From NCBI GenBank assembly GCA_015680905.1, contig JADFTS010000011.1:1-64000 (forward strand): DNA of 64,000 nucleotides, written 5' to 3'. Made by a program: the position numbers and the translations under genes. Below are positions 549 to 50,665 of the stretch, in pieces. The notes under the pieces were generated by a model, which saw nothing but the letters and a program-made list of their open reading frames with translations, searched no databases and had not been told where the DNA came from. This DNA is from Coptis chinensis. Lineage: Eukaryota; Streptophyta; Magnoliopsida; Ranunculales; Ranunculaceae. Within the stretch, counting starts at the first letter, position 1, and every line of letters begins with the position of its first letter.

Positions 549-586
<38 letters not shown>

Positions 587-4437: not shown

Positions 4438-4482
<45 letters not shown>

Positions 4483-8352: not shown

Positions 8353-8409
<57 letters not shown>

Positions 8410-12315: not shown

Positions 12316-12377
<62 letters not shown>

Positions 12378-15300
12378 TTTATTCGAAGAGTATAATATAA
12401 AAAAAAAAGAAAAAAAAAAAATTTTTTTTTTTTTTTTTTTCAATTCATTTAGAGATATACTCTAACTTAGATAAAATTTGTTGTCCACTTTTAAAAAATA
12501 TCTAACGGTCAATAAATGTCTAGTTTTTGCAATCATCATTTATCAAAGTTAAAAATTGTCAAACATGTTGAATTTTTGTAGGGATGTTCCTTATGGTTAG
12601 TAGTTCAAATCCACAAAAAATGAGGTTTTAAATCAGTGAGCATAGGCTTTAATTTCTGTATTTTTTTTCTCTGTTGTCGTTAAATTTTTTAGGGTTGACT
12701 TTGGAACCCCTCTTGAAAGTTTTATTTAATTTGTCATTTGAATACCTTAAGATTATGGTTAGAATACATGTACACTTTCAATCCATTTGTATATGGGATG
12801 ATTGACCTTGAAATTGTATTGGAATAAAGAAAAACATTTACATTTATTTGTTTTTGAGGTGTTGCTAATTACCGATTATTTACAATAAAACATTTATGAG
12901 TATCACTCAGTGCCTTGCTTCTGTAATTGGTCACCACATTGTAAGTCTATTCTTTCCAAGATAGATGATTCATTTACAGAGTCATAACTTTTTTCTAAAT
13001 TAAACATTTCTAGACGTTGGATCGGAAAATTTGTACTCAATATTTATTTTATGAAAAAGTTTGAATTAAGTTGCGCATAACTTTACCTTGTTACGTTGCA
13101 AATGCCACATGAGGGTCTTAGGCCTAGGCGGGATCCTTGGGATTAGACATCAAGCTAAACTTTGCATTGGATGTCGGTTTGTTTCTAATTGCCGGTATCA
13201 TTGCCTAACATCTCTCAGATCACCTTATTTCTTGAACTGTCATAATTAATCAAGAATGCAATGCCAACATCTTTTAAGTTGTTGTACATCACCACTAAAG
13301 ATAACAAAAAGATTCTTGAAGTAAATATAACTGAAGGGAATGGATTCTCTCGAAGGTGCAACGTGTATAGCTTTGTTGTGTTCTTGAGAGGGAAGATGAC
13401 AATGTTTGAACGAGGATATTGCAGTCCTTGGTGCGTGAGGAATAGACATCCGGTCTAGTTGATTTTATAGTACTGAGTTAATTTGAGATCGAATGAGGGA
13501 TGGCGACTTTCCTTCGATTCCCGTTTAATTGGAAATATGGAAATAAGTTTTACTATAAGTTTTATTTTAGTGTTTTGTCTTTCATATTTGACTAAGTTGT
13601 TCACTTAGGATTATCTTTCAATGTTGAAATCTTATTTCTTTTACTTCTTCTCAAAAATAAATAATAATAATAATAAAATCTTTTATTCGAAGAGTATAAT
13701 ATACAAATAAAAAACAAAAAAAAAAAAAAAAAAATTAAATTTATTTAGAGATATACTCTAACTTAGATAAAATTTGTTGTCCACTTTTGAAAAAATATCT
13801 AACGGTAAAAAAATGTCTAGTTTTTGCAATCATCACTTGTCAAAGTTAAAAATTATCAAACATGTTAAATTTTTGTAGTGATGTTCCTTATGGTTAGTAG
13901 TTCAAATCCACAAAAAATGAGGTTTTATATCAGTGAGCATAGGCTTTAATTTCTGAATTTTTTTTCACTGTTGTTGTTAATTTTTAGGTGTGACTTTGGA
14001 ACCCCTCTTGAAAGTTTATTTAATTTGTCATTTGAATACCTTAAGATTATGGTTAGAATACCTGTACACTTTCAATCCTTTTGTATATGGGATGATTGAC
14101 CTTGAAATTGTATTGGAATAAAGAAAAACATTTACATTAATTTGTTTGTGAGGTGTTGCTAATTACCGATTATTTACAATAAAACATTTATGAGTATTAT
14201 TACTCGATTGCTTCTCAGAATTGGTCACTTGCATTGTCACTCTATTCTTTCCAAGATAGATGATTCAATTACAGAGTCATAACTTTTTTCTAAATTAAGC
14301 ATTTCTAGACGTTGGATCGGAAAATTTGTACTCAATATTTCTTTTATGAAAAAGTTTGAATTAAGTTAATATAACTTACCTTGTTACGTTGCAAATGCCA
14401 CATGAGGGTCTTAGGCCTAAGGGATCCTTGGGATTAGACATCAAGCAAAACTTTGCATTGGGTGTCGGTTTGTTTCTAATTGCCGGTATCATTGCCTAAC
14501 ATCTCTCAGATCACCTTAATTCTTGAACTATCATAATTAATCAAGAATGCAATGCCAGCATCTTTTAAGTTGTTGTACATCAGCTTCTCTTATAACACCA
14601 CCACTAAAGATAACAAAAAGATTCTTGAAGTAAATATAATTGAAGGGAATGGATTCTCTCGAAGGTGCAACGTGTATAGCTTTGTTGTGATCTTGAGAGG
14701 AAAGATGACAATGTTTGACCGAGGATATTGCAGTCCTTGGTGCGTGAGGAATAGACATCCGGTGTAGTTGATTTTATAGTACTGAGTTAATTTGAGATCG
14801 AATAAGGGATGGCGACTTTTCTTCGATTCCCGTTGAATTGGAAATTTGGAAATAAGTTTTACTATAAGTTTTATTTTAGTGTTTTGTCTTTCATATTTGA
14901 CTAAGTTGTTCACTTAGGATTATCTTTCTATGTTGAAATCTTATTTCTTTTACATGTTCTCAAAAAAAAAAAAAAAAAAACTTTTTTCAGAGAGTATAAT
15001 ATACAAAATAAATAAAAAATAAAAACTGGAATTTTTTTTTTTTTTTTAAATTCATTTAGAAATATACTCTAACTTAGTTAAAATTTGTTGTCCACTTTTA
15101 AAAAATAACTAATGGTCAAAAAATGTCTAGTTTTGGCAATCATCATTTGTCAAAGTTCAAAATTGTCAAAAATGTTGAATTTTTGTAGAGATGTTCCTTA
15201 TGGTTAGTAGTTCAAATCCACAAAAAATGAGGTTTTAAATCTGTGAGCATAGGCTTTAATTTCTGGATTTTTTTTCACTGTTGTCGGTAAATTTTTAGGT

Positions 15301-17093
15301 GTGACTTTGGAACCCCTCTTGAAAGTTTTATTTAATTTGTCATTTGAATACCTTAAGATTATGGTTAGAATACCTGTACACTTTCAATCCTTTTGTATAT
15401 GGGATGGTTGACTTTGAAATTGTATTGGAATAAAGAAAAACATTTACATTAATTTGTTTGTGAGGTGTTGCTAATTACCGATTATTTACAATAAAACATT
15501 TATGAGTATTACTCAGTGCCTTGCTTCTGTTATTGGTCACCGCATTGTCAGTCTATTCTTTCCAAGATAGATGATTCATTTACAGAGTCATAACTTTTTT
15601 CGAAATTAAGCATTTCTAGACGTTGGATTGGAAAATTTGTACTCAATATTTATTTTATGAAAAAGTTTGAATTAAGTTGCGCATAACTTTACCTTGTTAC
15701 GTTACAAATGCCACTTGAGGGTCTTAGGCCTGGGCGGGATCCTTTGGATTGGACATCAAGCTAAACTTTGCATTTGGTGTCGGTTTGTTTCTAATTGCCG
15801 GTATCATTGCCTAACATCTCTCAGATCACCTTATTTCTTGAACTGTCCTAATTAATCAAGAATGCAATGCCAGCATCTTTTAAGTTGTTGTACATCAGCT
15901 TCTCTTATAACACCACCACTAAAGATAACAAAAAGATTCTTGAAGTAAATATAACTGAAGGGAATGGATTCTCTTGAAGGTGCAACGTGTATAGCTTTGT
16001 TGTGATCTTGAGAGGAAAGATGACAATGTTTGAACGAGGATATTGCAGTCCTTGGTGCGTGATGAATAGACATCCGGTGTAGTTGGTTTTATAGTACTGA
16101 GTTAATTTGAGATCGAATAAGGGATGGCGACTTTTCTTTGATTCCCGTTGAATTGGAAATTTGGAAATAAGTTTTACTATAAGTTTTATTTTAGTGTTTT
16201 GTCTTTCATATTTGACTAAGTTGTTCAGTTAGGATTATCTTTCTAAGTTGAAATCTTATTTCTTTTACATGACCTCAAAAAAAAAAACGTTTATTCGGAG
16301 AGTATAATATACAAAAAAAAAAAAAACTGGAATTTTTTTTTTTTTTTAAAATCATTTAGAGATATACTCTAACTTAGTTAAAATTTGTTGTCCACTTTTA
16401 AAAAAATAACTAACGGTCAAAAAATGTCTAGTTTTGGCAATCATCATTTGTCAAAGTTCAAAATTGTCAAAAATGTTGAATTTTTGTAGAGATGTTCCTT
16501 ATGGTTAGTAGTTCAAATCCACAAAAAATGAGGTTTTAAATCTGTGAGCATAGGCTTCAATTTCTGGATTTTTTTTCATTGTTGTTGGTAAATTTTTAGT
16601 TGTGACATTTGAACCCCTTTTGAAAGTTTTATTTAATTTGTCATTTGAATACCTTAAGATTATGGTTAGAATACCTATACACTTTTAATCCTTTTTATAT
16701 GGAATGATTGACTTTGAAATTGTATTGGAATAAAGAAAAACATTTACATTAATTTGTTTGTGAGGTGTTGCTAATTACCGATTATTTACAATAAAACATT
16801 TATGAGTATTACTCAGTGTCGTGCTTCTGTAATTGGTCACCGCATTCTCACTCTATTCTTTCCAAGATAGACGATTCATTTACATAGCCATAACTTTTTT
16901 CTAAATTAAGCACTTACAGGCGTTGGATCGGAAAATTTGTACTCAATATTTAATTTATGAAAAAGTTTGATTTAAGTTGCGCATAACTTTACCATGTTAC
17001 GTTGCAAATGCCACAGGAGGGTCTTAGGCCTAGGCGGGATCCTTGGGATTAGACATCAAGCTAAACTTTGCATTGGATGTTGGTTTGTTTCTA
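1..17093. repeat. Satellite array 1: ~1.3 kb monomers in a trimeric higher-order repeat
   Basis: Thirteen near-identical monomers can be followed by the landmark TCTAGACGTTGGATCGGAAA near 1217, 2515, 3783, 5117, 6432, 7701, 9046, 10366, 11642, 13011, 14307, 15617 and 16920 (a few copies vary by a base), so monomers are 1.27-1.37 kb. Three subtypes alternate. One has a long poly-A followed by CTTTATTCGAAGAG (541, 4441, 8357, 12297). One has an AAT microsatellite (1875, 5785, 9712, 13665). One has an A-run followed by a T-run (3175, 7091, 11021, ~14957). Each subtype recurs every 3.90-3.95 kb, giving four higher-order copies. The last two monomers (from ~15000) are more diverged, as expected at an array edge. 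The array ends inside a monomer at 17093. Short ORFs of 60-107 codons recur in each monomer, but none resembles a known protein. The window starts inside the array, so its left end is unknown. Confidence 0.93.
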
Positions 17094-20000
17094 AGTCACA
17101 TTAGTGTGCCAGAGAGGATGGCACACTGGTTGTGCATAACATTTTGCAGTTTTGTTGAAGCACTTTGGTTTGTCGTTCAATTATTCTTTAATGTGATATT
17201 ATTCTTTTTCTCTCTTAGGAATAATACATGACTAAAATAACATTCCATTGGTCAAGAAAATTACGAAAAATCTTATGTCACACGAGTGTGTCAGAGAGGC
17301 TGGCACACTGCTTGTACTTACTGTTTTGTAGTTTCATTGAAGCGCTTCGGTTTGTCGTTCAATTATTCTTCAATGTGATATTCTACTTTTTCTTTCTTAC
17401 GAATAATTGCTAATTAAAATAACATTCCATTGGTCAAGAAAATGATTAAAAATCTTATGTCACATTAGTGTGCCACAGAGGCTGGCACACTGCTTGTGCA
17501 TAACGTTCTGCAGTTTTGTTGAAACGCTTTGGTTTGTCGTTCAATTATTCTTTAATGTAATGTTCTTCTTTTTCTCTCTTACAAATAATACATTATTATA
17601 ATAACATTCCATTGGTCAAGAAAATGATGAAAAATCTTAAGTCACATTAGTGTGCCAAAGAGGTCGCACAATCGCTTGTGCATAACGCTTTTTCGTTTTG
17701 TTGAAGCGCTTTTAGTTTGCCGTTCAATTATTCTTTAACGTAATATTTTTATTTTTCTCTCTTATGAATAATTCCTTATTAAAATAACATTCTATTGGTA
17801 AAAAAAAATGATGAAAATTTTTTGACACATTAGTGTGCCGAGAGGTCGGCACACCGCTTTGCTGCATAACGATATAGCAGTTTTGTTAAAAGCGCTTTGG
17901 TTTGTCGTTCAATTATTCTTCAATTTGATATTCTTCTTTTTCTCTCTTGTGAATAATAATACCTAAAATAAAATAACATTCCATTGGTAAAGAAAATTAT
18001 TAAAAATCTTATTTCACGTTAGTGTGCCGGAGAGAGGTCGCCTTGCTTTGCTTGTGGTTAATGTTTTGCAGTTTTATTGAATCGCTTTTGTTTGTCGTTT
18101 CATTATTCTTCAATGTGATATTCTAATTTTTTCTCTCTAATGAATAATACATGACTAAAATAACATTCTTTTGCACTAGAAAATTATGAAAAAGCTGATG
18201 TCACATGAGTGCCAGAAAGGTTTGCACACTGTTTGTACTTACCATTTTGTAGTTTTATTGAAGCGCTTTGCTTTGTCATTCAATTATTATTTAATGTGAT
18301 ATTTTTATTTTTCTATCTTAATAATAATACCGTATTAAAATAACATTCTATTGGTAAAAAAAATGATGAAAAATCTTATGTCACATTAGTATGCTAGAGA
18401 GGCGGGCACACTGCTTGTGCATAACGTTTTGCAGTTTAGTTGAAGCGCTTTGATTTGTCGATCAATTATTCTTCAATGTGATATTCTTCTTTTTCTCTCT
18501 TATGAATAATACATGAAAAAAATAACATTGCATTGGTCAAGAAAATTTTGAAAAATCTTATGCCACATGACTGTGCCAGAGATGCTAACACACTGCTTGT
18601 ACTTTCCGTTTTGTAGTTTTGTTAAAGCGCAATGGTTTGTCGTTCAATTATTCTTCAATGTGATATTCTTCTTTTTATCTATTATGAATAATACCTTACT
18701 AAAATAACATTCCATTGGCCAAGAAAATGATGAAAAATCTTATGTCACATTAGTGTGCCAGCAGAGAGGCTGGCACACCGCTTGTGCATAACGTTTTGAA
18801 GTTTTGTTGAAGCACTTTGATTTGTCGTTCAATTATTCTTCAATGTGATATTATTCTTTTTCTCCCTTATGAATAATACATGACTTAATTAACATTCCAT
18901 TGGTCAAGAAAATTACGAAAATCTTATGTCACAAGAGTGTGCCAGAGAGGCTGGCACACTGCTTGTACTTACCGTTTTGTAGTTTTATTAAAGCGCTTTG
19001 GTTTGTCGTTCAATTATTCTTCATTGTGATATTCTTCTTTTTCTTTCTAATGAATAATACCTTATTAAAATTACATTCCATTGCTCAAGAAAATGATGAA
19101 AAATCTTATGTCACATTAGTGTGCCAGAGAGGCTGGCACACCACTTGTGCATAACGTTTTGCAGTTTTGTTGAAGCGCTTTGATTTGTCGTTCAATTATT
19201 CTTCAATGTGATATTATTCTTTTTCTCTCTTATGAATAATACATGACCAAAATAACATTCCATTTGTCAAGAAAATTACGATAAATCTTATGTCACAGGA
19301 TTGTGCCAGAGAGGCTAGCACACTGCTTGTACTTACTGTTTTGTAGTTTTATTGAAGCGCTTTGGTTTGTCGTTCAATTATTTTTCAATGTGATATTCTT
19401 CTTTTTCTTTCTTATAAATAATTCCTTATTAAAATAACATTCCATTGGTAAAAAAAATAATGAAAAATCTTATGTCACATTAGTGTGCCACAGAGGCTGG
19501 CACACTGCTTGTGCATAACGTTCTCCAGTTTTGTTGAAGTGCTTTGGTTTGTCGTTCAATTATTATTTACTGTGATATTCTTCTTTTTCTCTCTTACGAA
19601 TAATACCTAATTAAAATAAAATTCCATTGGTCAAGAAAATGATGAAAAATCTTAATTTACATTAGTGTGTCGAAGAGGCTGGCACACTGCTTATGCATAA
19701 CGTTTTGCAGTTTTGTTGAAGCACTTTGGTTTGTCGTTCAATTATTCTTTAATGTAATATTATTCTTTTTCTCTATTATGAATAATACCTTATTAAAATA
19801 AAATTCTATTGGTAAAAAAAATGATGAAAAATCTTATGTCACATTAGTGTGCCAGAGAGGATGGCACAGTGCTTGTGCATAACATTTTGCAATTTTGTTG
19901 AAGCGCTTTGGTTTGTCGTTCAATTATTCTTCAATGTGATATTCTTCTTTTTCTCTATTTGAATAATACATAACTAAAATAACATATCGTTGGTCAAGAA

Positions 20001-22837
20001 AATGATGAAAAATTTTATGTCACATTAGTGTGCTAGAGAGGCTGGCACACCGATTGTGCATAATGTTTTGCAGTTTTGTTGAAGCGCTTTGATTTGTTGT
20101 TCAATTATTCTTCAAAGTGATATTATTCTTTTTCTCTCTTATAAATAATACATAACTAAAATAACATTCCATTGGTCAAGAAAATTACGAAAAATCTTAT
20201 GTCACACGAGTGTGCCAGAGAGGCTGGCACACTGCTTGTACTTACTGTTTTGTAGTTTTATTGAAGCGCTTTGGTTTTTCGTTCAATTATGCTTCAATGT
20301 GAATTCTTCTTTTTATTTCTTTTGAATATTAAAATAACATTCCATTGGTTAAGAAAATGACGAAAAATCTTATGTCACATTAGAGTGCCACGTAGGCCGG
20401 CACACCGCTTGTGCATAACGCTCACTTGATTTTGTTGAAGCTTTGGTTTGTCGTTCAATTATTCTTTAATGTGATATTCTTTTTTTCTCTCTTACGAATA
20501 ATACCTTATTAAAATAACATTCCATTGGTCAAGAAAATGATGAAAAATCTTAAGTCACATTAGTGTGCCAAAGAGACTGGCACATTGCTTGTGCATAACG
20601 TTTTGCAGTTTTGTTGAAGTGCTTTGGTTTGTCATTCAATTATTCTTTAATGTAATATTCTTCTTTTTGTTTTGCAGTTTTATTGAATCGCTTTGGTTTG
20701 TCGATTAATTATTCTTCAATGTTATATTCTACTTTTTCTCTCTAATGAATAATACATGACTAAAATAACAATCTTTTGGTCAAGAAAATTATGAAAAAGC
20801 TGATGTCACATGAGTGCCAGAAAGGCTTGCACACTGTTTGTACTTACTGTTTTGTAGTTTTATTGAAGCGCTTTGCTTTATCGTTCAATTATTATTTAAT
20901 GTGATATTCTTATTTTTCTATCTTATTAATAATATCGTATTAAAATAACATTCTATTGGTAAATAAAATGATGAAAAATCTTATGTCACATTAGTGTGCC
21001 ATAAAGGTTGGCACACTTCTTGTGCATAACGTTTTGCAGTTTAGTTGAAGCGCTTTGATTTGTCGATCAATTATTCTTCATTGTGATATTCTTCTTTTTC
21101 TCTCTTATGAATAATACATGACAAAACTAACATTACATTGGTCAAGAAAATTTTGAAAAATCTTATGCCACATGAGTGTGCCAGAGACTCTGACACACTG
21201 CTTGTACTTTTTGTTTTGTAGTTTTATTAAAGCACAATGGTTTGTCGTTCAATTATTCTTCAATGTGATATTCTTATTTTTCTCTCTTATGAATAATACC
21301 TTACTAAAATAACATTCCATTGACCAAGAAAATGATGAAAAATCTTATGTCACATTAGTGTGCCAGCAGAGAGGCTAGCACACCGCTTGTGCATAACGTT
21401 TTGCAGTTTTGTTGAAGCGCTTTCATTTGTCGTTCAATTATTCTTCAATGTGATATTATTCTTTTTCTCTCTTATGAATAATACATGACTAAAATAACAT
21501 TCCATTAGTCGAGAAAATTATGAAAAATCTTATATCACATAAGTGTGCCAAAGAGGCTGGCACACTGCTTGTACTTACCGTTTTGTAGTTTTATTATAGC
21601 GCTTTGGCTTGTCGTTCAATTATTCTTCATTGTGATATTCTTCTTTTTCTTTCTTATGAATATTAAAATCACATTCCATTGGTCAAGAAAATGATGAAAA
21701 ATCTTATGTCACATTTGTGTGCCAGCCTGGCTGGCACACTACTTGTGCATAACGTTCTGCAATTTTGTTGAAGCGCTTTGGTTTGTCGTTCAATTATTCT
21801 TTAATGTGATATTTTTTTTTCTCTCTTACGAATAATACCTTAATAAAATAACATTCCATTGGTCAAGAAAATGATGAAAAATCTTAAGTCACATTAGTGT
21901 GCCAAAGAGACTGGCACATTGCTTGTGCATAATGTTTTGTAGTTTTGTTGAAACGCTTTGGTTTGTCGTTCAATTATTCTTTAATGTAATATTCTTCTTT
22001 TTCTCTCTTATGAATAATACCTTACTAAAATTACATTATATTGGTAAAAAAAATGATGAAAAATCTTTTGTCACATTAGTGTGCCAAAGAGGATGGCACA
22101 CTACTTGTGCATAACGTTTTGCAGTTTTGTTGAAGCGCTTTGATTTGTCGTTCAATTATTCTTCAATGTGATATTCTTCTTTTTCTCTCTTGTGAATAAT
22201 ACCTACCTAAAATAACATTCCATTGGTAAAGAAAATTATTAAAAATCTTATTTCACATTAGTGTGTCAGCCGCACACTGCTTGTGCTTAATGTTTTGCAG
22301 TTTTTTTGAATCGCATTGAAGAATAATTGAACGACAAATCAAAGCGCTTCAACAAATCTGCAAAACGTTATGCACAAGCGGTGTTGCCAGCCTCTCTGCT
22401 GGCACATTAATGTGACATAAGATTTTTTATCATTTTCTTGGCCAATGGAATGTTATTTTAGTAAGGTATTATTCATAATAGAGAAAAAGAATGAAATCAC
22501 ATTGAAGATTAATTGAACGACAAACCATTGCGCTTTAATAAAACTACAAAACGGAAAGTACAAGCAGTGTGTCAGAGTCTCTAGCACACTCGTGCTGGCA
22601 TAAGATTTTTCATAATTTTCTTGACCAATGTAATGTTATTTTTGTCATGTATTATTCATAAGAGTGAAAAAGAAGAATATCACATTGAAGATTAATTGAT
22701 AGACAAATCAAAGAGCTTCAACTAAACTGCAAAACGTTATGCACAAGCAATGTGCCAAACTTTCTGGCACACTAATGTGATATAAGATTTTTCATAATTT
22801 TCTTGACTAACGGAATGTTATTTTAGTCACCACACGT
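17094..22837. repeat. Satellite array 2: ~187 bp monomers, about 30 copies
   Basis: About thirty tandem monomers of roughly 180-190 bp share ordered landmarks: CACATTAGTGTGCCAGAGAG, GCATAACGTTTTGCAGTTTT, TTGTCGTTCAATTATTCTTC, TGAATAATAC and AACATTCCATTGGTCAAGAA. Two subfamilies are mixed, one with GTGCATAACG...TTTTGCAG and one with GTACTTACCG...TTTTGTAG after the hairpin; they often alternate. Most monomers carry the palindrome GTGTGCCAG / CTGGCACAC with a five-base loop (for example 18937-18959). The array begins abruptly inside satellite 1 at 17094 and ends abruptly in Athila-like DNA at ~22837. Orientation is uniform to ~22312 and then reverses. Small ORFs in the array are by-products of the repeat. 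Confidence 0.93.
22312..22837 (-). repeat. Inverted block at the distal end of satellite 2
   Basis: From about 22312 the monomer landmarks appear as reverse complements: GAAGAATAATTGAACGACAA, then AAAACGTTATGCACAAGCGG, then the hairpin, then GACATAAGATTTTT. Just upstream a plus-orientation monomer is cut off in its GCAGTTTTTTTGAATCGC segment. About three monomers are inverted. Their subtype order matches the reverse complement of the block near 21000-21430, for example the variant with an extra CAG in GTGCCAGCAGAGAG. This suggests fold-back duplication of neighbouring monomers rather than a random inversion. Confidence 0.85.
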
Positions 22838-29950: not shown

Positions 29951-29959
29951 TTAAATATA

Positions 29960-30120
29960 AGGTTAATTTGAGTTATCCCCCCAAACTTATGTAGCGTTTT
30001 GTGTTTAACCCCCAAATTTTGAATCATCACACTTAAACCCCCACTCTGTCTCAGACCTCTAACAGAACTATTCATATTTTCCATAATGCCCAAACTACCC
30101 CTTTGAAAGAGCCATTAGAA
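29960..30120 (+). repeat. MULE left terminal inverted repeat
   Basis: It begins AGGTTAATTTGAG and matches the reverse complement of 35650-35815 over about 160 bp with scattered substitutions. It likely holds the promoter for the plus-strand gene. Confidence 0.9.
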
Positions 30121-30179
30121 AGTTAAAACGTCCGCTTTGACTTATCCCATATTTGGTTGACTCCTTTCTTCCCCAACAA

Positions 30180-30186
30180 TATAAAT
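30180..30186 (+). promoter_or_regulatory. Possible TATA box of the MULE plus-strand gene
   Basis: TATAAAT lies just inside the left TIR, 32 bases before the proposed start codon at 30218. This would leave a very short 5' leader, so transcription may start elsewhere in the TIR. Confidence 0.35.
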
Positions 30187-30217
30187 TTCATCTTGCTTCT
30201 CTCTCCAACAACAACTA

Positions 30218-30746
30218 ATGGGTGGTGGTGAACCAACTAAGATGTCACTTGAGGTAAGTATCACTTTTGACCCGTCAGTTGTTACTATTAGGGTCCTTAC
30301 TATTATTGTTCTTGATTAGGTTCTTGATTAGAGCTTCCTTCCTTGTTTTTTGTCGTCTGGTTTTTTGGGGGTTAATTACAAATTAGTTACAAAGAGTAAG
30401 GGTTAATAACATAATTTTAGCACATGATTTGAGGGTTATGTTTTTCTCTTTTCAGGCTACCGGTTGCTTTCAATGTGGCGATTTGAACCATTGGAAGGAT
30501 ATATGCCCTCACAGTTGTCCTTGGGGTTGTGGGAAAACTATGAAAATGTACAAGAGTACTAGGGAATGGAGTTTTGGACAGAGATTTCTAACATGCAAGA
30601 GAGATGAATGTAAGGGTTTTATTTGGATAGACAAGGGGCACCTAGACAAAGACCCTAAAGACAAGAACAAAGAAGTAGTTGCCAGTACTTCAAGGGCTTC
30701 AAAAGAGGATATGAAGTGCCAGGGGGAAGTCACTGGTCACAATTGA
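30218..30746 (+). CDS. MULE-borne zinc-knuckle plus GRF-type zinc-finger protein (two exons, 108 aa)
   Basis: Exon 1 (30218-30253) encodes 12 residues and ends at a consensus donor GTAAGT. Exon 2 (30456-30746) follows a pyrimidine-rich acceptor TTTTCAG and ends in TGA. The spliced frame is open and in phase. Exon 2 opens with a CX2CX4HX4C zinc knuckle (CFQCGDLNHWKDIC) and continues into a GRF-type finger with CPWGCG, the GQRF motif and a final CKRDECKGFIW. The last ~40 residues are Lys/Glu-rich and charged. GRF fingers bind single-stranded nucleic acid in several repair proteins, and CCHC knuckles bind nucleic acids, so a nucleic-acid-binding accessory role is inferred. An AATAAA lies at 30857-30862. 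The gene is convergent with the transposase and, unlike it, has no break. It could also be a captured host fragment. Confidence 0.7.
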
Positions 30747-31157
30747 GGGTCCTATTAAAATGAAGGTGAAAGGAAATGCTAGTGATGTAACTGAACTTGT
30801 GAATGAAGAAGTTGTCACCTGGATGAATTGTGTATGAAAGAGAGGGATGGAAATGAAATAAATGTTATGTGTTGTTAGTCCTTATTTTCACTAACAGATC
30901 ATAGCAACATAGTAATCATACATAGAACTACATAGCCCATTGCAATTTAATATTATCTTAAAACTAAACAAACCAACAAACACACAGTCTTGATTAATAA
31001 GTAACTAACAATCATGTCCTGACAACTGAAAGAAAACCTAAGCATAGCCAAAATTCCAACAAAACATTGAAAGCATTGTTTTGGGCAAAAATACAAAAGC
31101 CACAAAACACACAACACAACAACTAACACAAAATAAGCACCATCACCAGAAACATGA
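30747..31157. other. Intergenic junction between the two convergent MULE genes
   Basis: This ~400-bp stretch holds the likely 3' UTRs of both MULE genes, including the plus-strand AATAAA at 30857. No further ORF is supported. Confidence 0.5.
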
Positions 31158-34100
31158 CTATTTCTTTGCTCTCTTTACTGGTCTCTCATTAACTGAGCAT
31201 GAGGCTTGGCTTGATATTACCTGCCTTCGATATCTCCGCACAGTTGGCTCTTCATGCCTGAAGTACCTTCTCTGTTGTTGTGGCTGGATGGGAGGCATAA
31301 CAGGTATCACCAATGGAGGTCTGACATTTGAAGTATGTTGTGTTGGAGGTTCTGACTGAGATGGTTGTGGCTGAGATGGTTGTGACTGACTGGGTTGGGA
31401 ATAGGTAAATGAGGCCTCAGTTGCATTATTAGAATTACCCATTCCTCCTTTACTACCCCTTACCCCTCTACTCACACTTTCATTTCCTCCTCTGCTGCCC
31501 CTACCTCCTTTACTACCCCTTCCTCTACTAACAGTTTCAGTTCCTCCTCTTCTTCCTCTGCTCCCCCTACCTCCTCTACAACCCCTTACTCTGCTCCCCC
31601 TACCTTCTCTGCCTCCTCTATTAACATTTTCATTCTCTCCTCTCTGCCTCCATTAACAGTTTTCACCTCTCCTCCTCCTCCTCCATTAACAATTTCATCT
31701 CTCCTCTGCCTCCTCCATTGACATTTTCAGTTTCTATACCTCTACTACCCCCTCCTCTTTTCCTCCTCTACTACCTCCTCCTCTTCCTCTTATTGGTGGA
31801 GCAGCTTGAGCTCCATCTTCAGGGTTGATTGGTGCCTGCAAGAATGGATTTGGAAGTGGTCTTGTTCTTGGCCTACATGGTCTTCCTCTAGTCCTTCTTC
31901 CTCTAACAACATTACCACCCACTTCACCTCCTTGACACCCTCTTATTTTATGGCCAAGTACACCATATCTAGAACACCTAACTGAGTTCTCATTTTCATT
32001 TGCACCCCTTCTCCTGTTAACTCTAGGCCTTCCAGGTTGTCTATGCTTAACTGGAGGATAAACATAATCTGCAGCTACAGGCTGCATCAATTAAACAAAA
32101 CACATGTCAATACTCAATGGGTGCCCATACTCAATCAATAAACTAGAAACTAAAAGAATTGAAAATTGGAAAAAGAATTACCTTTGGCCAATCATCCTCA
32201 TGAACCATCGGAGTTATGTTCCCACTATGTGCATTTCTATAAGCTCTAATAGTGAAAAAAAGACTGCAGAATCTAAAAACAAGTATAACAACAAATTGCA
32301 ATAAATAATGTAATTTAACACAACAAATTGCTATAGAACATATCAAATTTAAACTTACACTCTATCCAAGTGTCTCTCCTTGGCTTAATAACAACCACAA
32401 CATGAATGCAAGGAATTCCACACACTTGCCATTCTCTGCATGTACAACTTAATTGTACCAAATCAACAGTCCACCAATGTCTAGACTTATGTGTCACACA
32501 GAACTTATCCTCATTTGAACCAGCAACTTCATAATCACCAATTGCATCTCTCTTTCTGCTAAAATATCTTTCACCCTTGGTACTAGATCATTCTTATTCC
32601 AGTCTACAAACTTCCCCTTTCTATCATAGATCAACTTCATTTGTAAAATCACTATCTTGGAAACCATCTTCACAATAGGCTTATCTCTACTATCCATTAT
32701 AAAATTATTCCATGATTTAGAGAAGTTATTAGAGAGGTGGTCAGACTTACATTCAGTGTCAAAGTGTGACCTTTCCCACAACTTAATTAGGCTCCTCACT
32801 CATTAAGTAGTCTTTGGAATCACTACATCTTTTCTCAAGCAACTCCATACTTTTATTAAAGTCAACTTCCCCAAATGTTTTTGCTGCATTCCATGCTTCC
32901 ACTTCAAGACCCTTAAACCTTGTCTTCATGTTCTTCAGCATGTGTCTAAAACAAAATCTTTGATTGCAATCTGGAAACACTGTGGCAACTGCATTACCTA
33001 AACCTTTTTGTCTATCAGAAATTATGGTCAGTCTAGATGGATGTAAGTTCAAGGATGGTGTCATAATATCCAGAAATTCAATCCAATTCTCAGTGTTTTT
33101 TGAAATACAAATAAAAAAACCTAGTGGAAACAATCCATTATTTCCATCTAATGCTAGAACAGACAGACATACACCCCCATGTTTCCCCTTTAAAAAACAT
33201 CCATCAAGACCTATTAAAGGCCTACACCCACTGACAAACCCATCTAAACATGCTTTGAAAGCAATACAAACCCATTCAAAACTCATGTAGTTAGCATTTC
33301 TAGAGAATTTAGCAATATATAGAATCTGGGTTGGAGTTGAGAATATGCAAACAAAGCTGATGAACCTTTGCATAAGACTCATCATAACTTCCATGAATCA
33401 TTTCCATTGCTAAGTTCCTGGCATTCCAAGCTTGCCAATACTTAATCTTAACTTGATATCTGTTCCACATGATTGCCTTGATGTCAGTTGGTTTGTAGCT
33501 CTTGAAATGAAGTCTCAAGTCTTTCTCAATATCTTTTGCTATCCAAGCTGCATTTTCCATAGAGTTTCTATTTTTTCTATCAGCTGTACAAGTGTGAGCA
33601 TCATTCAACCTTCTTAACCTGAATGTACTCCTCTTAGTCATGCACCTGCAATAAGCCCTCCATTTACAACTTTCCTCCTTACACACAACTTCAATCTGTA
33701 GAGAATCATTTTTCTTGAACCTCATACTAAATTTTATTTTAATAGCACACAACCTCAAATAATCTCTACACAAGTATCTATCAGCCCATTTCTAACCTAC
33801 AAACAACCTAATTGATGTTTCATCAGATCTAGTCTCTCCCTCATCAGTTGGAATATTAAAAGTGTTATCAACCAATAGATTTATTACATCATCATCCTCA
33901 ACTATTTGTGCCCTAATAGTTGGTTGTATTGGTTCATCTTCTTTAGCAATTGAATAATTTCCATCCTCTTCTTCAGCAAAAACATACCTCTCATCAAACA
34001 AAGACTCTTCACCACTTGAATTATTTTCAGAACGTATATACTCCTCATCAGATGAATCTTGACTATAGTAATGCTCACATTGCATCTATCCGGTCAATGT

Positions 34101-35477
34101 TGAATTCACATCTAAACCCTTCAACAGCATCAGGACATAAATCATTCAAACAACATACAAGATTTACAAAAGAAGTCTTTGGAAAAATTTGGATGTAGAC
34201 AACTATTAAAAAAAAATAGGATGTGTAATTATTAAAAAAATTGGATGTAGACAGCTATTAAAATAATTTGGATGTAATTACACATACCTGCAACTCCAGT
34301 AGATATAGACAGCTCCTCAACTTCAATAGATTTGGGTTGTTGCTCTTGTTCTCGAACAACTCTCTTTCCTTTTACTTTATGACTAGGGCCTGCCCCATGT
34401 GAACTTCCACTATCTTTCTTGTCTTCAGAATAATAAGGCAAAAGAAATGGTGGGGAGCTCAAATTTGTTGTCTTCTTCTTAACATAGTCATAGTCTTCTG
34501 TAGTGGGTCAGTCATCCAAGTCAAACAACTTCCCCCTTCTACATCTTCTGCCATGCATATATATATATATATATTCACTATCTGTGGAAGAGCCCACAAC
34601 ATGTGGTATTTCACATTGCCCCTCATTTTCATCATCACTTGAAATGACATCCAATATATATATATTTTAAATACTCATAAAGACATCAATTTATTTTTTG
34701 CCATCCATATTTACAAAAAATCAGATATGTGTGAACCCATTTACATCAACTCTTTCATTTTCCCATTCATGAACAACAACATGTGGTATTTCATTGCCCC
34801 TCATTTTCATCATCAGACATCCAACTTTTACAAAGATTTGAACCCATTTCCACCATTTTCCCACATGAACAACACAACTCTATCACCATGCATATTTCCA
34901 ATACATTTCCAGATGGGACACCAAATGCTAAACTGATCCAAGCAACAAGGTCTATCAAACTTGCATAATCATAATCCCATTCCTCAAAATCTACATACTG
35001 TCCACCAACATATTTCATATATTGTCCATCCTCTACCCATTCACCCCTATGGTGACACCTAAGGATCCTAATTGTGGCCATTATCCTCAGAAAGCAACGT
35101 AACCAAGCCAAAACCAAAACAACAATCAGACACAACAACCAAACTTTAAAACCGTGCTATCAATTATAAAGCTATCAACTTTAAAACATTTTGTGTTTAA
35201 GTTGAGTGAAATAAACTGACTTTGACAAAATAGCCATTCATATCATGAATATATCAATATAAATGAAACAAAGTAACTAAACATGATGCTACAATGTAAC
35301 TAAACAAACTAAAGTAACTATGTAAACTAAACAAAGTAAACTTTATCGGACATTGATTATATAATTTAAAAAACCTTAGAACAAAAACCCTAAATTATCG
35401 ATTATTGAAAATAAGGCACGTGAAAATTACCTTGACTGTGAAGATTGTCGATTCAAGTCTGAGATCGTGGATTCCAT
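31158..35477 (-). pseudogene. MULE transposase (mudrA-type), multi-exon with several frame breaks
   Basis: The start ATG is at 35475-35477. Exon 1 (35431-35477) joins in phase to an exon starting at 35085, whose N-terminal domain contains RCHHRGEWVEDGQY and KYVGGQYVDF. A Ser/Glu-rich linker and a donor at 34288 follow. The main exon (34085 to 32359) contains the FAR1/MuDR-type zinc-binding region (VCKEESCKWRAYC), the DDE core (first Asp in GLDGCFLKG, second in TIISDRQKGL, then CFRHMLKN) and the SWIM finger (SCTCREWQVCGIPCIHVV). Exon 4 (32245-32182) carries AYRNAHSGNITPM. The C-terminal exon from 32081 carries GRPRVNRRR and a degenerate knuckle, CSRYG where CxxC is expected, then Arg/Gly-rich sequence to a stop at 31158. 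Breaks: an in-frame stop near 34509, TAG near 33792, and one-base shifts near 33310, 32790 and 32545. A ~60-bp segment is duplicated 180 bp apart (34596 and 34776). The phase at the 34288/34085 junction also does not fit cleanly. Confidence 0.85.
31430..31740 (-). repeat. Low-complexity CCTCCT-type repeats in the transposase C-terminal region
   Basis: Degenerate repeats of about 18-45 bases built on CCTCCTCTACTACCCCT encode Arg/Gly-rich sequence on the minus strand. Repeat-length variation here explains why the reading frame is broken between 31475 and 31734. Confidence 0.7.
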
Positions 35478-35649
35478 TGTAAGAAGTAGTTCTTTCAAGG
35501 TTGAGAAATGAATGTTGAGAAATGGATGTTAGAAATTCAAAGGAGACGGCGAGGAGATGAGAAATAAAGTGAGAAACAAAATAAAATTCTAAGTTGGGGT
35601 TTTAATCAAACTTATTGGAGTGGACCATGTTTAATTGGAGGGTAAAACA

Positions 35650-35815
35650 ATTTGCTCCCCGCAATTTTCTTGAAAGGGTAGTTTGGACATTATGAAAAAT
35701 ATGAACAATTCTGTTAGAGGTCCGAGGCGAGTGGGGGTCTAAGTGTGATAATTCAAAATTTGGGGGTTAAACACAAAACGCTGCAAAAGTTTGGGGGGAT
35801 AACTCAAATTCACCC
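35650..35815 (-). repeat. MULE right terminal inverted repeat
   Basis: Read on the minus strand it begins GGGTGAATTTGAG and pairs with 29960-30120. It lies about 170 bp upstream of the transposase start codon and likely holds its promoter. Confidence 0.9.
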
Positions 35816-35824
35816 TTAAATATA

Positions 35825-41080: not shown

Positions 41081-41144
41081 ATGTCAACATTAATAACTAG
41101 ATAAATAAATGAGATGAAACAATAACTTAATATATAAGACTTAC

Positions 41145-41621
41145 CGGTATAATCCAAACAAAGCCACACAAATTGCCTTTAGCGGCTTTCGTCTCAACTG
41201 CGAGGTCTATCCAACGGTAAAGGTACGCCAAGATGGATTGACCCCAGTCATAATCCCACATCCTCTCTACGTCTGAGACAGCGGCCATCGACCCGATGCG
41301 TAAGAAACTATCAGAGTATCCGAATAATACCGCATCAACAAAGTAGAAGAGGAAGGCACGTACATATTCTTGGATCGACTCCTCACCAATATGATAGTCT
41401 TTCGACTTCTCCTTTAGCCTATTCAAGTATCTCGAAGTAAACCAACTTATATTTATAGCTCCTCCCTTAAACTGCTCAGCTGATAATCTCAAGAACCCGT
41501 CTTCCTCATCATCTTCTACCAAATCAAAATCTTCAAAGAAATTCATTGCCGTAGTAAAAACCTCCAAATTTTCTTTAAAAAGAACGACATCTCCATAACC
41601 AATTGGGATATTCGTGAGCAT
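41145..41621 (-). CDS. Plant mobile domain (PMD) protein, isolated exon
   Basis: A 159-codon open exon starts with ATG at 41619-41621 and ends at a consensus donor GTAAGT (41144-41139). Its sequence matches the plant mobile domain (aminotransferase-like, MAIL-type): IEEYVRAFLFY-like (residues about 80-90, here IQEYVRAFLFYFVDAVLFGY), then DVERMWDYDWGQSILAYLYR and a C-terminal GF. PMD proteins occur both as host silencing factors and as coding regions of transposons. No second exon is recognised before the retrotransposon begins 116 bp downstream, so the gene may be interrupted by that insertion (its 3' part could lie beyond 36422) or be a relic. An acidic stretch (VEDDEEDGF) lies near residue 36. 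Confidence 0.65.
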
Positions 41622-42941
41622 TATGAAATCAAAAGGGTAATCCCAAGCTCACCCCATGGGAAATGGAATATGTGGATAGATTTCTACCACCGCTCAATTA
41701 TCCCAAACAACAATGCTTGATCATTTTGTCCCAAATTTGAATTTAAAAAATTCCCAAATGGTGTGGCGGCTATAATGTTGGTAACCGTGACAAAATTAGG
41801 ATCCGTTTTTTATTTCAAACAACGCCACCATGACACAAATATTTGAAAGTGCACAACGTTACTTTCCATAGGTGTATTGCCTATATTACCGCTAATACAA
41901 CAAACTATTCAACACGATATAATTTCAACTCAAATTTTTTTTTTACGCAATGCAACAAATTCAAACTAATTACACAACAACAAACTTGATATAAACTAAC
42001 ATAAATAATAATAATTAACATAAAAAAAATCTAAAACTTACTTGAGACGCCGCCACTCTATTTGCTACGTGTTGGACCGATGTTGACGCTAATGGTGGTG
42101 TTTTGTTTTCTGTCTGATATTAGACTCACCAGACAGGATGTTTCATTCCGTCTCGATAAAAAATCCTCCAGACGGAATCCAACATCCCGTCCGAGATTAT
42201 TTTTCACCTTTGCATTGGGCAGTCTCACCTTGTTTTTCACCAAAACGGTGGAAAAGAGGAGAAATACTACTTACCTAGAGGTGAATATTTGTGACTCGCA
42301 TTGGGAATGCTCGTACGTACACAAATACGACCTAGCCTCCTTTTTGTCTTACTCACCCCAGCTCAATAACCCTGAGGTGTGGTGTCTCGCTAGTTTACTT
42401 TTAACGATGTAATCATGGTGCCGTAATGTGTCAAGGTGGGAATTAACTTGGGAGTCAGTACTGGCATAGGGCCGGGTTGGGGAGCTGTAGATTTGTAATG
42501 GGCTTATTCTTGGGTTCTTTTAAGCCTATGAACTTGACTCCGGATATGGCCGTCATGCCTAGTTCAGTACTTCAGTAGTTTAACTGCCCTGGCGAGTGGT
42601 GAGTCCAATATAATAATGGACGAGAACAAGGACAAGGACATGGACATGAAACAAGAAGATACACGAACATCTTAGGTCAATCAACCATGAATCTTTAAGG
42701 TTAACCGTTTATATAGTTAGATACATAAATTTGATAGTTTATCCAAGAAAAAGAAATCTATCTTTAGTAGGATTTACTTCCTCTTTGAATTAGTGAATAT
42801 ATGTAACAAAAAATAAATTTATATTAGTATTCAAAATTAAATATGAACATCTAACTTAAAATCAATTAGTGATAAATAGACACTGAGTTATCATATAATT
42901 ATAAATCACAAATGTATACTACCACCATGCATAACAAAAAG
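41622..42941. other. Non-coding stretch between the PMD exon and SINE
   Basis: No confident gene. On the minus strand 42243-42058 reads as a 61-codon ORF that could be an upstream PMD-gene exon, since a donor-like GTAAG follows near 42040. It matches no family I know. Confidence 0.35.
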
Positions 42942-43365: not shown

Positions 43366-45671
43366 TCAATCAGCTTTCTTGGACTCTTCATCTGTAGTCT
43401 GTCTTTTGTTCGCTGATCCTGTAGCAGATCCTTTGCCCTCGGCAGCCTTGGAATATATTTCATTCCTCTCCATGAAGTATCTCTCAAAGGATCTCGGAAG
43501 GAATTTAGGAATTAGAAATACAAAAAGATTGATAGAGAAATAGACCAAGTCTGCAGTAGCCAAGATCTTGCCAAACCAATACCACACAACATCCTACAAA
43601 ATAATTCGTATATTGCAACGAACTTTATGAGTAACTAAATCCTCTGTTTTCGAATATTCTACCAGAAATAAGATGCAACTTACAACAAAAATTTGGATCA
43701 GTAAAAAATGACAATATGAACAAGATGAAAATAACAACATTTAGTATTGAATATATAGCACTGAAGCTGCTGAACAAGTTTTTACTGAATTTTGATGACT
43801 GTAGATCTCATCATAGGAACAACCAAAGCATACTCATCAGATAGGAGTAACAAAATCAAAGCATACTAAAAAATCCACAATTTGGTTAGAGAAAGTAAAT
43901 AGAGAAGTGTGGAATGTGATCATATCTGATATTTGACAATGGTCCTTCATTTTGGTCATGCTGAACTGGTACCCTGAGTCAAGCCATAACCAATATTCCA
44001 TCCCACAGTGAAAGCGTAAACTTACAAATACAAACTAGTGTGAATATGTGCAAACATGAAAGCATGACTAAGAATTCACAAACTGAACTTGAGTGATGAA
44101 TTCACTCAATAATTAAGCTAATACTCTCTTGAGCACCTATCCTCCATAAGTCATACTTGACAACAATCTGAGACAGTCTCAATAATCAAATACATACTCT
44201 ACTGATTCCTTGTAGAGGTGAAAATGTGCTTGCTCCAAAGCCCTAGGAACCACATGTCCCATGTCCTAAAAGTTTTTCCAATGTTATTAGGGAAACAAAA
44301 TAGATGATCGCGACAAAATTCAATGTAAACTACAATGCAAATTTAATCTGAACTGCCCTGCTCTACCGAAGTACTAAGTTTTGATTGAATTTCCACTTCA
44401 TGCTGTTTTTTAAGAGCCCACGCTAAATCCCCTCAAAGCCCAAATGATCAATCATTATAAGCTCTCCAATCTTTGCTAGTGCCCCAGAATATCCATCGTT
44501 ACATATTTACATGTTCCCCATATTTGCCCTTGGGATTTATGAGTAATTCAAAATCAACTTAACTTCAAGCATTTTAGGTGTTTTGGACATTAATGAAACC
44601 ACCCTAATTGATTGAAAAGAAAATTCTTAATTCTTCAATGAATAGTTTGCATGCTGAATTACAAATACTGGACTATATGAAATTTTGTAGAAAAATTGTC
44701 AAGATATACGTAGCAAAAGAAAGATTGCATAAAAACCATCAGCAAATTCATTTGATGTAAGAAAAATCTGCATTTTCCATAAACTAAGTCCATAGCTACC
44801 AAACAGAAATGTTGAATTACCTTGAAAGGTGCATTTGCTGGCAAAGTCTTGTTAAGCCAAACATCGACAACCCAATCAGCAATCACAAACAATCTTCGAA
44901 CAGTATAAAGAAGCAGTACCAATGCTCTCACAGGTGGCAAAAACAAAGAAAGTCCACTGATTATATTTTCAGTTAAGATCTGAAACGAAAGCAAGAACAG
45001 GTGTGGTGTAGCAGATCTAACCGAATGGTCATCACCTCTAACGAACCCACCCAACACATACGCCAAAGGAAGGAACAAACCTATGGTTGTTCCAAGAATT
45101 ACGTACATCCGAAACAATCTACTCCCATGAAAGATCTCTCGTGCATTAGTACCATGGGAAGGGAAGGCGAAACGAGCTAGGATAATGAGACAAGCGGAAG
45201 TGAAGGCTGGAAACACTATGTCTATAACAGGGACAAGACCACTTACTGCAAATACCATTATGAATGCTACTAGTTGTAATTCAAATACAACGACCCCATT
45301 ACACTTTTTTTTTTTTGGCAAGCCTCTCTTTGATACTGGCGGGGTTCAAGTCGCAAACCTCTGGTATCATCACCCAAAGGTTTTACCGACTTTGCTAGTC
45401 GGCACCTGCAAAAAAAAAAATGTGTGGGCAAGCCTGTTTTTAAAGAGATCAGTAACTCAATTGTGTATAGCGGGTTGCGAACCCCAAACCTCTGGTATTA
45501 TCACCCAAAGGTTTTACCAACTAAGCTAGAAGGCACTTACAATTACACTACCCATTACTGGTTGATCATTTTGTTGATGAAGGTAGCACGGTGGAGATTT
45601 CCATTTGATTTTGGATCGATGGTTTCATCTGGCTCACTTCTTGGAGCCACTGCGACTAATACTCCAGACAT
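43366..45671 (-). CDS. DUF7733-family multi-pass membrane protein gene, 5' part split by SINEs
   Basis: The main exon is open from 45321 to a donor at 44821/44820 (GTAATT), and the last exon runs 43593-43366 after an acceptor TTTGTAG; they join in phase. Together they encode about 240 residues with several hydrophobic segments: VAFIMVFAVSGLV near the start, MYVILGTTIGLFLPLAYVLG, HLFLLSFQILTENIISG, RALVLLLYTVRRLFVIADW and YFSINLFVFLIPKFLP. A charged Lys/Glu tail follows. This order fits plant DUF7733 membrane proteins; the function is unknown. A natural start lies further upstream. The ORF at 45671-45555 begins MSGVLVAVAPRSEPDE and runs to a stop just before the SINE pair. Without the SINEs and one target duplication the two parts are about 17 bp apart but not in the same frame, so an intron or a frame break is needed. 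The gene may be damaged, or it may start inside at 45321. Confidence 0.65.
45306..45405 (-). mobile_element. tRNA-derived SINE, proximal copy
   Basis: On the minus strand it starts GTGCCGACTAGCAAAGTCGG (A-box-like), holds TAAAACCTTTGGGTGATGAT, a B-box-like GACTTGAACCCC, and ends AGAGAGGCTTGCC plus a poly-A tail (45306-45317 on the plus strand). It abuts the distal copy with no gap. The outer target duplication TTACACT-type sequence (45296-45305) is shared with 45540-45549 in 9 of 10 positions. Confidence 0.85.
45406..45536 (-). mobile_element. tRNA-derived SINE, distal copy
   Basis: On the minus strand it starts GTGCCTTCTAGCTTAGTTGG (good A box), contains TAAAACCTTTGGGTGATAAT, a B-box-like GGGTTCGCAACCCGC, then AACAGGCTTGCCCACACA and a T-run. 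It is the same family as 45306-45405 and 42942-43039. Its tail is T-rich rather than A-rich, which is odd next to the poly-A tail of its neighbour. Confidence 0.85.
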
Positions 45672-46794: not shown

Positions 46795-47114
46795 CATGAC
46801 ATTTGACATATACAAAGTGAGTTAGGTACTTAGGTCTAGTGATTCCCAAAGGAAGAAAAAAGAGATGTATTTCTTCATGCAGTAAAAGCCCGATTGCAAG
46901 AGATATATACAACTCTCATGAATTAATAACCCTAAACAAGATGAATATGACTGCATTTGTGCATCTAGAAAGGCAATAGAGCATTTAGCCATGCAAGATA
47001 AACAACTACTACCCTCTAAAATACTGTTGTGGAACTTTCAAGTTTAAATGGCAATGCAAAAGCCATCATTCCACAAGCAAGTACAACAGGGCAGAACCCT
47101 CAGTCGCAATGATA

Positions 47115-47522
47115 GTGTTGCTATGTTGCTTAGAAGAGTTTTGTCAATGTAACATCTCACCAGTTGTAGTTGTTCACATGTTCTTCATTGATTCCTCTCC
47201 TCTCAACTTCTTGACAATAGCTATGGTTTCTGCCCCTCCAGATTTTCAGTTGATGTGGAGAGGTAGGTTTCCCTGATTCCCTTAATCAAACCACCAGTAG
47301 TCTATAGTGCAAATAGATTGGATCAGAATGGGAAGAGTTTATCCAACCCAGGGAATTGGACCATTAATGATGGTCCTATAATGATAGATACCTAAATTGA
47401 TACACACACTCTTAACTAAGAGCTCTAACATCCCATTAGAATTAACATAACAAGGCACCTAAACATACAAAAAATTGTCGAATGTAAAAGTGTTTTTTGT
47501 AGTTATCAACAATTATAATACA
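47115..47522 (+). repeat. Triplicated ~408 bp segment, copy 1 (outer left arm)
   Basis: It starts AGTGTTGCTATGTTGCTTAG and ends near ATAATACA. It matches 51221-51628 in direct orientation and 55071-55476 in inverse orientation. No coding sequence. Confidence 0.9.
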
Positions 47523-48034
47523 ATCTTCAAGGCCCACAAGTGGTAGACATAATTTTTGATAGATGAACGATAAGCTCATTAAAATGGAAGAGAGCAAGTG
47601 AAGACCATTAATATGGACAAGAATTGTACAAAGTAACTATGCACACTAGATGGTGAACAAATATCCCTAAGCACGGCTTGAAGTATAGTATTGCATTAGA
47701 TAAGTTCTAATAATAAAAAATATCACATGAAATTGTTGTCACTTTCCAACAAAGAAATATGACAAAAATTCGAAACATATAGAAAAAGATGTAAACACTT
47801 GTATAAGTCTTAAAAGGTCGAGATACATTCATCATCATTACTACCATCTACTCATCAAAAAAGTTAATATCATAAAATAATGTTCTCCATGATATCCAAA
47901 ATCTACAAAGTTACTATACAAACAAAAATATGGGTATGAAATGATTACCACCAATGCCACTCAGAATTCCACAGCTCAGTAACTTGACGAATATATTCCA
48001 ACCTAAAGCACTAGATTAAGGACTTGATTCTTTT

Positions 48035-50407: not shown

Positions 50408-50665
50408 TCCTTCCTCCCCCGCAAATACCAAATACAAAACATTAATAAAAAAAAAATCATTAAGAATTCAATAGTGAGAAATTAACGAGAAAAAAAAATG
50501 GACCGGATTAGAATAAATCCATGTCGGATCGCCCACGTGAGAAGGTTAATTATTGTATGTAATTTACCTTCCCAAAAGATATTTTGAGTAGTAAAAAAAG
50601 ACCCAAAATATTGATATATTAATTTCCTAGATTGATCGGGGTTAGGTTTTGGACATGGTTTTATG

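Follow-up and report, generated by a model that had tools for sequence, protein, structure and literature searches.

The two genes of the maize element MuDR are convergent. The role of the second genes of Mutator-like elements (MULEs) has been an open question since mudrB, and several of the known ones are, to our knowledge, confined to one family and without a recognised domain. Insertion in maize is reported to depend crucially on MURB, and Abermu elements devoid of their opposite-strand gene apparently still move in rice (PMC9168764), so that a second gene need not matter for movement. According to the same description, the ORFR proteins of distant species do not resemble each other, and their function is unclear (PMC9168764).

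Here we describe a MULE on contig JADFTS010000011.1 of Coptis chinensis, lying in the 64-kb stretch of DNA that was analysed as a whole and that we call the window. Like MuDR (mudrA, mudrB; PMC9168764), the window element has long terminal inverted repeats (TIRs) and a 9-bp target-site duplication (TSD), its transposase has both a MULE and a SWIM domain, and a second gene runs in the opposite direction. In contrast to MuDR, this second gene encodes a protein with a CCHC knuckle and a GRF-like finger and has one intron near its start. MURB is not known to have a zinc knuckle.

Results

A MULE with a broken transposase gene

A previous reading of this DNA, made from the sequence alone, had proposed a full-length MULE with a small gene just inside its left TIR. 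The full-length element was confirmed by long TIRs and perfect 9-bp TSDs at the following positions of the window:

29951..29959, left TSD, 9 bp, TTAAATATA, with the identical 9 bp at 35816..35824
29960..35815, whole MULE element, 5,856 bp, delimited by TIR alignment, inverted-repeat arms and TSDs
29960..30107, + strand, left TIR, an inverted-repeat arm aligned to the right element end
35670..35815, - strand, right TIR, an inverted-repeat arm
35816..35824, right TSD, 9 bp, TTAAATATA, a perfect match to the left copy

The TIR arms are about 145-150 bp long and 90.9% alike over 143 bp; long TIRs together with a TSD of 8-11 bp are the hallmark of MULE/Mutator elements. The divergence between the TIRs was considered as a measure of age and dropped, because the ends of a MULE need not be identical at insertion. 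Pack-MULEs are defined by the lack of a transposase and by captured host sequence between the TIRs; here, transposase sequence is found inside the same element. Its pieces lie on the minus strand, and the three recognised domains each score above the respective Pfam cut-off:

31161..31652, - strand, open frame with the Gly/Arg/Ser-rich C-terminal tail of the transposase
31737..32090, - strand, C-terminal piece of the transposase with its own damaged zinc knuckle (one Cys replaced by Tyr), from frame and relatives
32318..32497, - strand, frame with the SWIM zinc finger (Pfam SWIM, E 2.1e-9)
32786..33397, - strand, frame with the catalytic MULE domain (Pfam MULE, E 1.6e-17)
33312..33791, - strand, frame with the DNA-binding domain (Pfam DBD_Tnp_Mut, E 2e-7)
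34794..35156, - strand, open frame with the N-terminal region of the transposase, matching the start of the 932-codon frame of copy L014

The small gene thus points at the transposase, as had been proposed, and the several breaks previously noted in the transposase were seen again as pieces in different frames with stops between them. Another copy in the same genome, L014, has TIRs and a TSD and carries both genes as open frames, a transposase of 932 codons and a small protein of 131 aa. Its transposase runs in a single frame from the N-terminus through SWIM, with DBD_Tnp_Mut, MULE and SWIM above the Pfam cut-offs, and the C-terminal part lies in a separate 156-codon frame that may follow an intron. 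Since L014 is unbroken where the window has pieces in different frames and stops, we regard the window transposase as broken. The transposase's own knuckle, at 31935-31976 on the minus strand, is intact in two distant copies (L030 and L031).

The small gene is truncated in the window copy

The small gene and its surroundings comprise the following features:

30180..30185, + strand, TATAAA box preceding the gene, conserved in 19 of the 21 aligned rows, the exceptions being L015 and L025
30218..30253, + strand, exon 1, 12 codons, MGGGEPTKMSLE, with a second in-frame ATG starting MSLE
30254..30455, + strand, intron of 202 bp, GTAAGT...TTTTCAG, with both splice boundaries conserved in 17 of the 21 aligned rows
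30456..30746, + strand, exon 2 of the window copy, 96 codons plus TGA, an early stop compared to relatives
30465..30506, + strand, CCHC zinc knuckle CX2CX4HX4C, CFQCGDLNHWKDIC, ligands invariant in the six-protein and the wider alignment
30516..30632, + strand, GRF-like four-cysteine finger, CX3C...CX4C, ending in CKGFIWID, read as a pattern and from alignment, with no Pfam GRF match
30727..30837, + strand, remnant of the C-terminal GPIKM...VTELV block, in a frame different from that of the finger
30857..30862, + strand, AATAAA, a possible poly(A) signal of the gene, read from the sequence

These coordinates and the GT-AG intron agree with the proposed two-exon gene of 108 codons with consensus splice sites just inside the left TIR, and the product annotated in the window copy has accordingly 108 aa. 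The frame had also been called clean and intact, which turned out to be wrong: relatives reach 131-139 aa, and the alignment with them shows a two-base gap in the window copy, located within 30720-30735, which makes its protein stop early, at 30744. Both missing bases are present in 19 of the 20 relatives aligned there, L028 being unrelated at that point, and the next frame still spells out the lost C-terminus as far as 30834. A codon-phase test of this lost part gave P 0.0002 with generic codon frequencies and 0.0006 with the MULE frame as reference, and P 0.064 with the gene's own upstream part; taken alone, the test is mixed, and it is the alignment of the relatives that settles the matter. 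With the window frame truncated, we rejected its cleanness as a sign of selection; nor does it hint at recent capture, given the divergence common to both genes described below. The whole small frame including the start codon is kept in five of the 20 fetched relatives (L009, L014, L015, L016 and L017), and two more (L013 and L019) lack the first ATG and keep the remainder.

The length of the open frame is unremarkable: when 400 Markov sequences as long as the element were generated, 56% of them contained an open frame of at least 106 codons, and their longest frame averaged 112 codons, compared to 119 codons from stop to stop in the real frame. The knuckle pattern occurred in seven of these 400 sequences and the finger pattern, which was composed after the sequence had been seen, in none. 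In the 64-kb window, each of the two patterns occurs once, both inside the small gene.

Two putative zinc-binding motifs and a conserved C-terminus

In the full small protein, the CCHC knuckle and the GRF-like four-cysteine finger are joined by a charged linker to a conserved block at the C-terminus. Eight presumed zinc ligands (C16, C19, H24 and C29; C33, C37, C59 and C64) and the blocks FGQRFL, GFxWxD, GPIKM and VTELV are unchanged in six aligned proteins from two subfamilies. A wider alignment of eight proteins, with four more distant rows, has invariant knuckle ligands, first and last finger cysteines and GFxW; in it, the first finger pair is CX2C, not CX3C, in L032, L036 and L037, a Tyr replaces one finger cysteine in L033, and the C-terminal block is mostly gone in L037.

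The previous description of the protein as a zinc knuckle followed by a GRF finger was borne out for the knuckle, the pattern of which is present, and not for the GRF label. The zf-CCHC model (PF00098) scored above its gathering cut-off of 20.8 in five of seven relatives (L029, L030, L031, L032 and L033; 22.6-29.2) and below it in L036 (18.0), L037 (15.3) and the window protein (17.6-17.8). The GRF model PF06839 gave no match at E 10 in the window protein or any of the seven relatives, and PF23549 gave none at E 10 in the window protein and weak matches below the gathering cut-off in L032 (E 0.013) and L037 (E 1.3). Comparison by hhalign of the wider alignment with six GRF rows, one of them entered by hand, yielded a probability of 52 and an E of 1.4e-4 in a single comparison over 25 columns. 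When our own GRF profile was run against 2000 shuffled sequences, four of these reached the score of L032, 30 and 38 (two runs) that of the window protein, and 96-451 those of four others. Because Pfam is negative, the profile comparison suggestive and the shuffle test clear for L032 only, we rejected a settled GRF label and call the finger GRF-like, its resemblance to a GRF zinc ribbon being suggestive.

Among solved structures, the best matches to the small protein were the knuckles of RECQL4, AIR2, retroviral nucleocapsids and LIN28. NCBIfam returned no match for it. No relatives of the small protein were confirmed in viral contigs, bacterial and archaeal genomes or plasmids (one plasmid match at chance level, E 7), and none of the transposase in viral contigs, as is expected for a plant element.

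The two-gene layout recurs in independent insertions

The assembly to which the window belongs (935,630,033 bases, with nine chromosome-sized contigs of 85-125 Mb) was searched with the 96-aa exon 2 as query, and the best 150 of 396 candidates were scored, corresponding to 141 distinct places. At least 28 of these places had an E of 5e-16 or better; identity in most of the others was 35-55%, and open frames of 120-200 codons were frequent among them. The small gene is hence not found only in this copy, and we rejected a one-off capture on account of these 150 scored matches.

For the 20 best places after the window, 9.8 kb each were fetched. Downstream transposase-related sequence on the opposite strand was detected in 19 of these 20 close copies, with none in L021 and a C-terminal piece only in L025. 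Both TIRs were contained in the fetched 9.8 kb in eight copies, seven of which have perfect 9-bp TSDs, the eighth (L023) having two mismatches at best; in this search either end could be offset by as much as 6 bp, and six of the TSDs were found at shift 0 and that of L024 at shift 1. The TSDs of L016 and L017 are of low complexity. In two copies, L009 and L026, the TSD is that of the window and the flanks match the window's at 90-97%; both thus represent the same insertion, copied together with its surroundings. This leaves six independent insertions with perfect and different 9-bp TSDs, namely the window (with L009 and L026), L010, L014, L016, L017 and L024, so that the two-gene layout does recur between TIRs flanked by 9-bp duplications, in this genome. 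Together with its flanks, the window insertion occurs three times in the assembly, twice on small contigs (C103 and C29) and once on C5, representing either a segmental duplication or unmerged haplotypes.

The MULE domain was used as a second query, and the best 150 of 2,401 candidates were scored, giving 148 distinct places that were matched with the small-gene places by coordinates only. A listed transposase lies within 10 kb of 49 of the 141 small-gene places, and all 49 pairs are convergent, as are the two genes of MuDR-type elements; the spacing is 1.87-2.13 kb in 34 of them. Random placement gave a mean of 0.45 and a maximum of 3 of 144 in 500 trials. Grouped by identity to the window, listed transposases have a small gene nearby in 17 of 19 cases at 70% or more, in 28 of 64 at 60-70%, in one of six at 55-60% and in three of 59 below 55%. 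The two misses in the highest class seem to be those on C1 (81.58 Mb) and C3 (107.32 Mb); on the side where it is expected, a small gene lies about 25 and 28 kb away from them. The 92 small-gene places with no listed transposase within 10 kb, and the unpaired transposases, cannot be read as true lacks because most of the 2,401 candidates were left unscored. Among the matches listed, 56 of the 59 transposases below 55% and 36 of the 64 at 60-70% have no small gene, and the pair is therefore perhaps restricted to a part of the MULEs. These results support the small gene as a recurrent second gene of a MULE family, with fixed place and orientation, within this genome; the proposal that the element carries a second gene of its own is upheld by its convergent recurrence between TIRs in independent copies.

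The layout extends to more distant copies. Three of them, about half identical to the window copy (L029-L031, 45-53%), have the same layout, the eight presumed ligands and the C-terminal GPIKM...VTELV block, and all three have a convergent transposase whose MULE domain is 58-62% identical. Their left ends gave short blastn matches to the window TIR, which those of L029 and L030 resemble by eye; their right ends were not found within the 8.1 kb fetched. Six further copies (L032-L037, 35-45% identical) were picked down the ranking from plus-strand places only, with 3.2 kb each. In five of these six, tblastn detected transposase-related sequence on the opposite strand, weakly in L036 and L037; none was detected within 3.2 kb in L034, the tail of which looks by eye like the transposase tail of L030. 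According to the coordinates of the genome search, L033, L035 and L037 have a listed convergent MULE domain within 10 kb.

Both genes are under constraint and diverged together

The dN/dS of the small gene had been proposed as a test, and we analysed it both within and between subfamilies. Polymorphism was assessed in 19 close copies including the window, with L025 and L028 left out. The pooled pN/pS of the small gene was 0.51; variants common to several copies had an N/S ratio of 0.39 (binomial P 0.009) and singletons one of 1.02. With one copy per insertion site, the ratios were 0.41 (P 0.026) for shared variants and 0.88 for singletons. The contrast between shared variants and singletons is not strong, with a Fisher P of 0.053 for all copies and of 0.19 when each site is represented once. 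For the MULE domain, no signal of constraint was detected in the close subfamily, with ratios of 0.97 and 0.92, and of 0.75 and 1.11 with one copy per insertion, which are not significant.

Between subfamilies, where the pairs are non-independent and dS is near saturation, dN was 0.43-0.52 and dS 1.16-1.50 for the small gene, compared to 0.26-0.30 and 1.24-2.09 for the MULE domain. Both genes are thus constrained, the small gene less so, at similar synonymous divergence. The protein distances of the two genes correlate with r 0.91 over seven loci that fall into three clusters. The divergence common to the small gene and the transposase favours an old association over a recent capture.

Other sequences in the window

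The first part of the window (1-16500) changes composition periodically, about every 4 kb, and has nearly evenly spaced spurious tblastn matches (713, 4614, 8540 and 12505); it thus seems to be built of large tandem units, each about 3.9 kb long. It is followed at 17095-22827 by an array of a 182-bp satellite, in which the orientation of the units appears by eye to be reversed from about 22309. On the other side of the element, GC-rich minisatellites at 36.6-39.7 kb lie near a minus-strand frame at 41130-41648 that resembles the plant mobile domain (Pfam PMD, E 9.4e-7, below the cut-off), and another minus-strand frame at 44662-45345 contains DUF7733 (E 2.5e-52). A large imperfect palindrome occupies 46810-55798; its arms measure about 3.7 kb, and their longer pieces are 90-98% complementary. 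Both arms contain the sequence CGICRMAFDGCCPDC, which we take to be like the RING of APC11.

Discussion

For anatomy and co-inheritance taken together, we are highly confident that the window element is a decayed member of a plant MULE family that has two convergent genes. CCHC knuckles generally bind single-stranded nucleic acid, and the GRF zinc ribbons of repair proteins bind DNA. We propose that the small gene, placed like mudrB and maintained by selection, encodes a nucleic-acid-binding partner for the element's own transposase. The knuckle and finger of this protein would contact either element RNA or, where ends are excised or joined, single-stranded or branched DNA, its C-terminal block would bind a partner, e.g. 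the transposase, and the protein would assist in excision-repair or in insertion, the role ascribed to MURB in MuDR. Judging from domain plan and conservation, a constrained nucleic-acid-binding partner of this kind is the best overall reading and, in our view, somewhat favoured. That the protein helps transposition is, on the sequence, an evenly poised proposition; with MURB reportedly crucial for insertion in maize and Abermu apparently moving in rice without a second gene, a helper role is likely and not certain. More tentatively, and from the genes of one genome, a clade of plant MULEs may be two-component, with a transposase and a dedicated double-zinc, MURB-like cofactor (knuckle, GRF-like finger and GPIKM...VTELV block) that would have co-evolved with it since the split of the subfamilies, at a synonymous divergence above 1, and would either handle the single-stranded or branched DNA of transposition or shield the element from silencing; we lean slightly against this wider generalisation.

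The main rival, which we consider rather unlikely, is an anti-silencing factor that would bind element DNA or transcripts and counter host methylation or small RNAs in the manner of VANC. A constrained, small, element-encoded nucleic-acid-binding protein fits such a role equally well, and vanC, with its anti-silencing function, offers a precedent among the second genes of MULEs (PMC6446971). The convergent layout, however, is that of MuDR. Zinc knuckles are, moreover, not a known feature of VANC.

It is unlikely, to a greater degree, that the small protein acts as an RNA-binding protein in the export, stability or translation of the element's mRNA, or limits the overlap of the convergent transcripts. 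CCHC knuckles frequently bind single-stranded RNA, and the solved structures matched best, listed above, would suit this role; these matches rest on the knuckle, however, and knuckles bind DNA or RNA depending on the protein.

An old capture of a host gene fragment, e.g. of a topoisomerase 3-alpha or a RECQ-like gene with CCHC and GRF fingers, carried along as a functionless passenger, appears improbable. Gene capture is frequent in MULEs, and Arabidopsis TOP3-alpha has a GRF and two CCHC fingers, the latter with the identical C-X2-C-X4-H-X4-C spacing (PMC6160208). A passenger is nevertheless hard to reconcile with the constraint between subfamilies whose dS exceeds 1, with ligands that do not vary and with a gene retained in independent insertions. 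A chance open frame or a pseudogene without a coding past, which the length of the frame alone would allow, can practically be dismissed in view of the 150 scored matches and of the TATA box, splice sites, frame and cysteines largely kept in the aligned copies.

The preferred reading, an element-encoded partner of the transposase, is readily approached by experiment: here, the second gene has a readable domain plan, recurs with the transposase in divergent subfamilies and is found in one copy with both frames open, which makes binding assays, reporter-transposition assays and searches in other plants straightforward.

Among the other described systems, Abermu of barley and other plants is a MuDR-like MULE that likewise has an opposite-strand second gene, ORFR, beside the transposase; compared by description, it differs in that the passages on ORFR name no zinc or GRF domain (PMC9168764). 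The insect MULEs Spectre and Ghost have two frames, the second with a zinc finger (PMC6446971); their finger types, C2H2 or RING, differ from those of the window protein, and their hosts are animals. VANDAL and Hiun elements (vanB, vanC) are MULEs with further genes, one of them anti-silencing (PMC6446971). Compared with VANDALs by description, the window element is set apart by its long TIRs. VANDALs are not known to have these, and the element thus falls outside that group. Set beside the cellular GRF/CCHC proteins (TOP3-alpha, ZCCHC4, APE2, NEIL3 and RECQL4), the window protein has the knuckle spacing of plant TOP3-alpha and a GRF-like finger tail, and the RECQL4 knuckle is the closest in sequence among solved structures; in contrast to them, the window family is a stand-alone protein of 131-139 aa encoded between TIRs, with a finger below Pfam GRF recognition. 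Among the matches listed in the open-licence literature, we found no account of a second gene with knuckle and GRF-like finger in MULEs. MULEs with a second gene are already known, and our best reading is that a second protein combining a zinc knuckle with a GRF-like finger represents a new variety of them.
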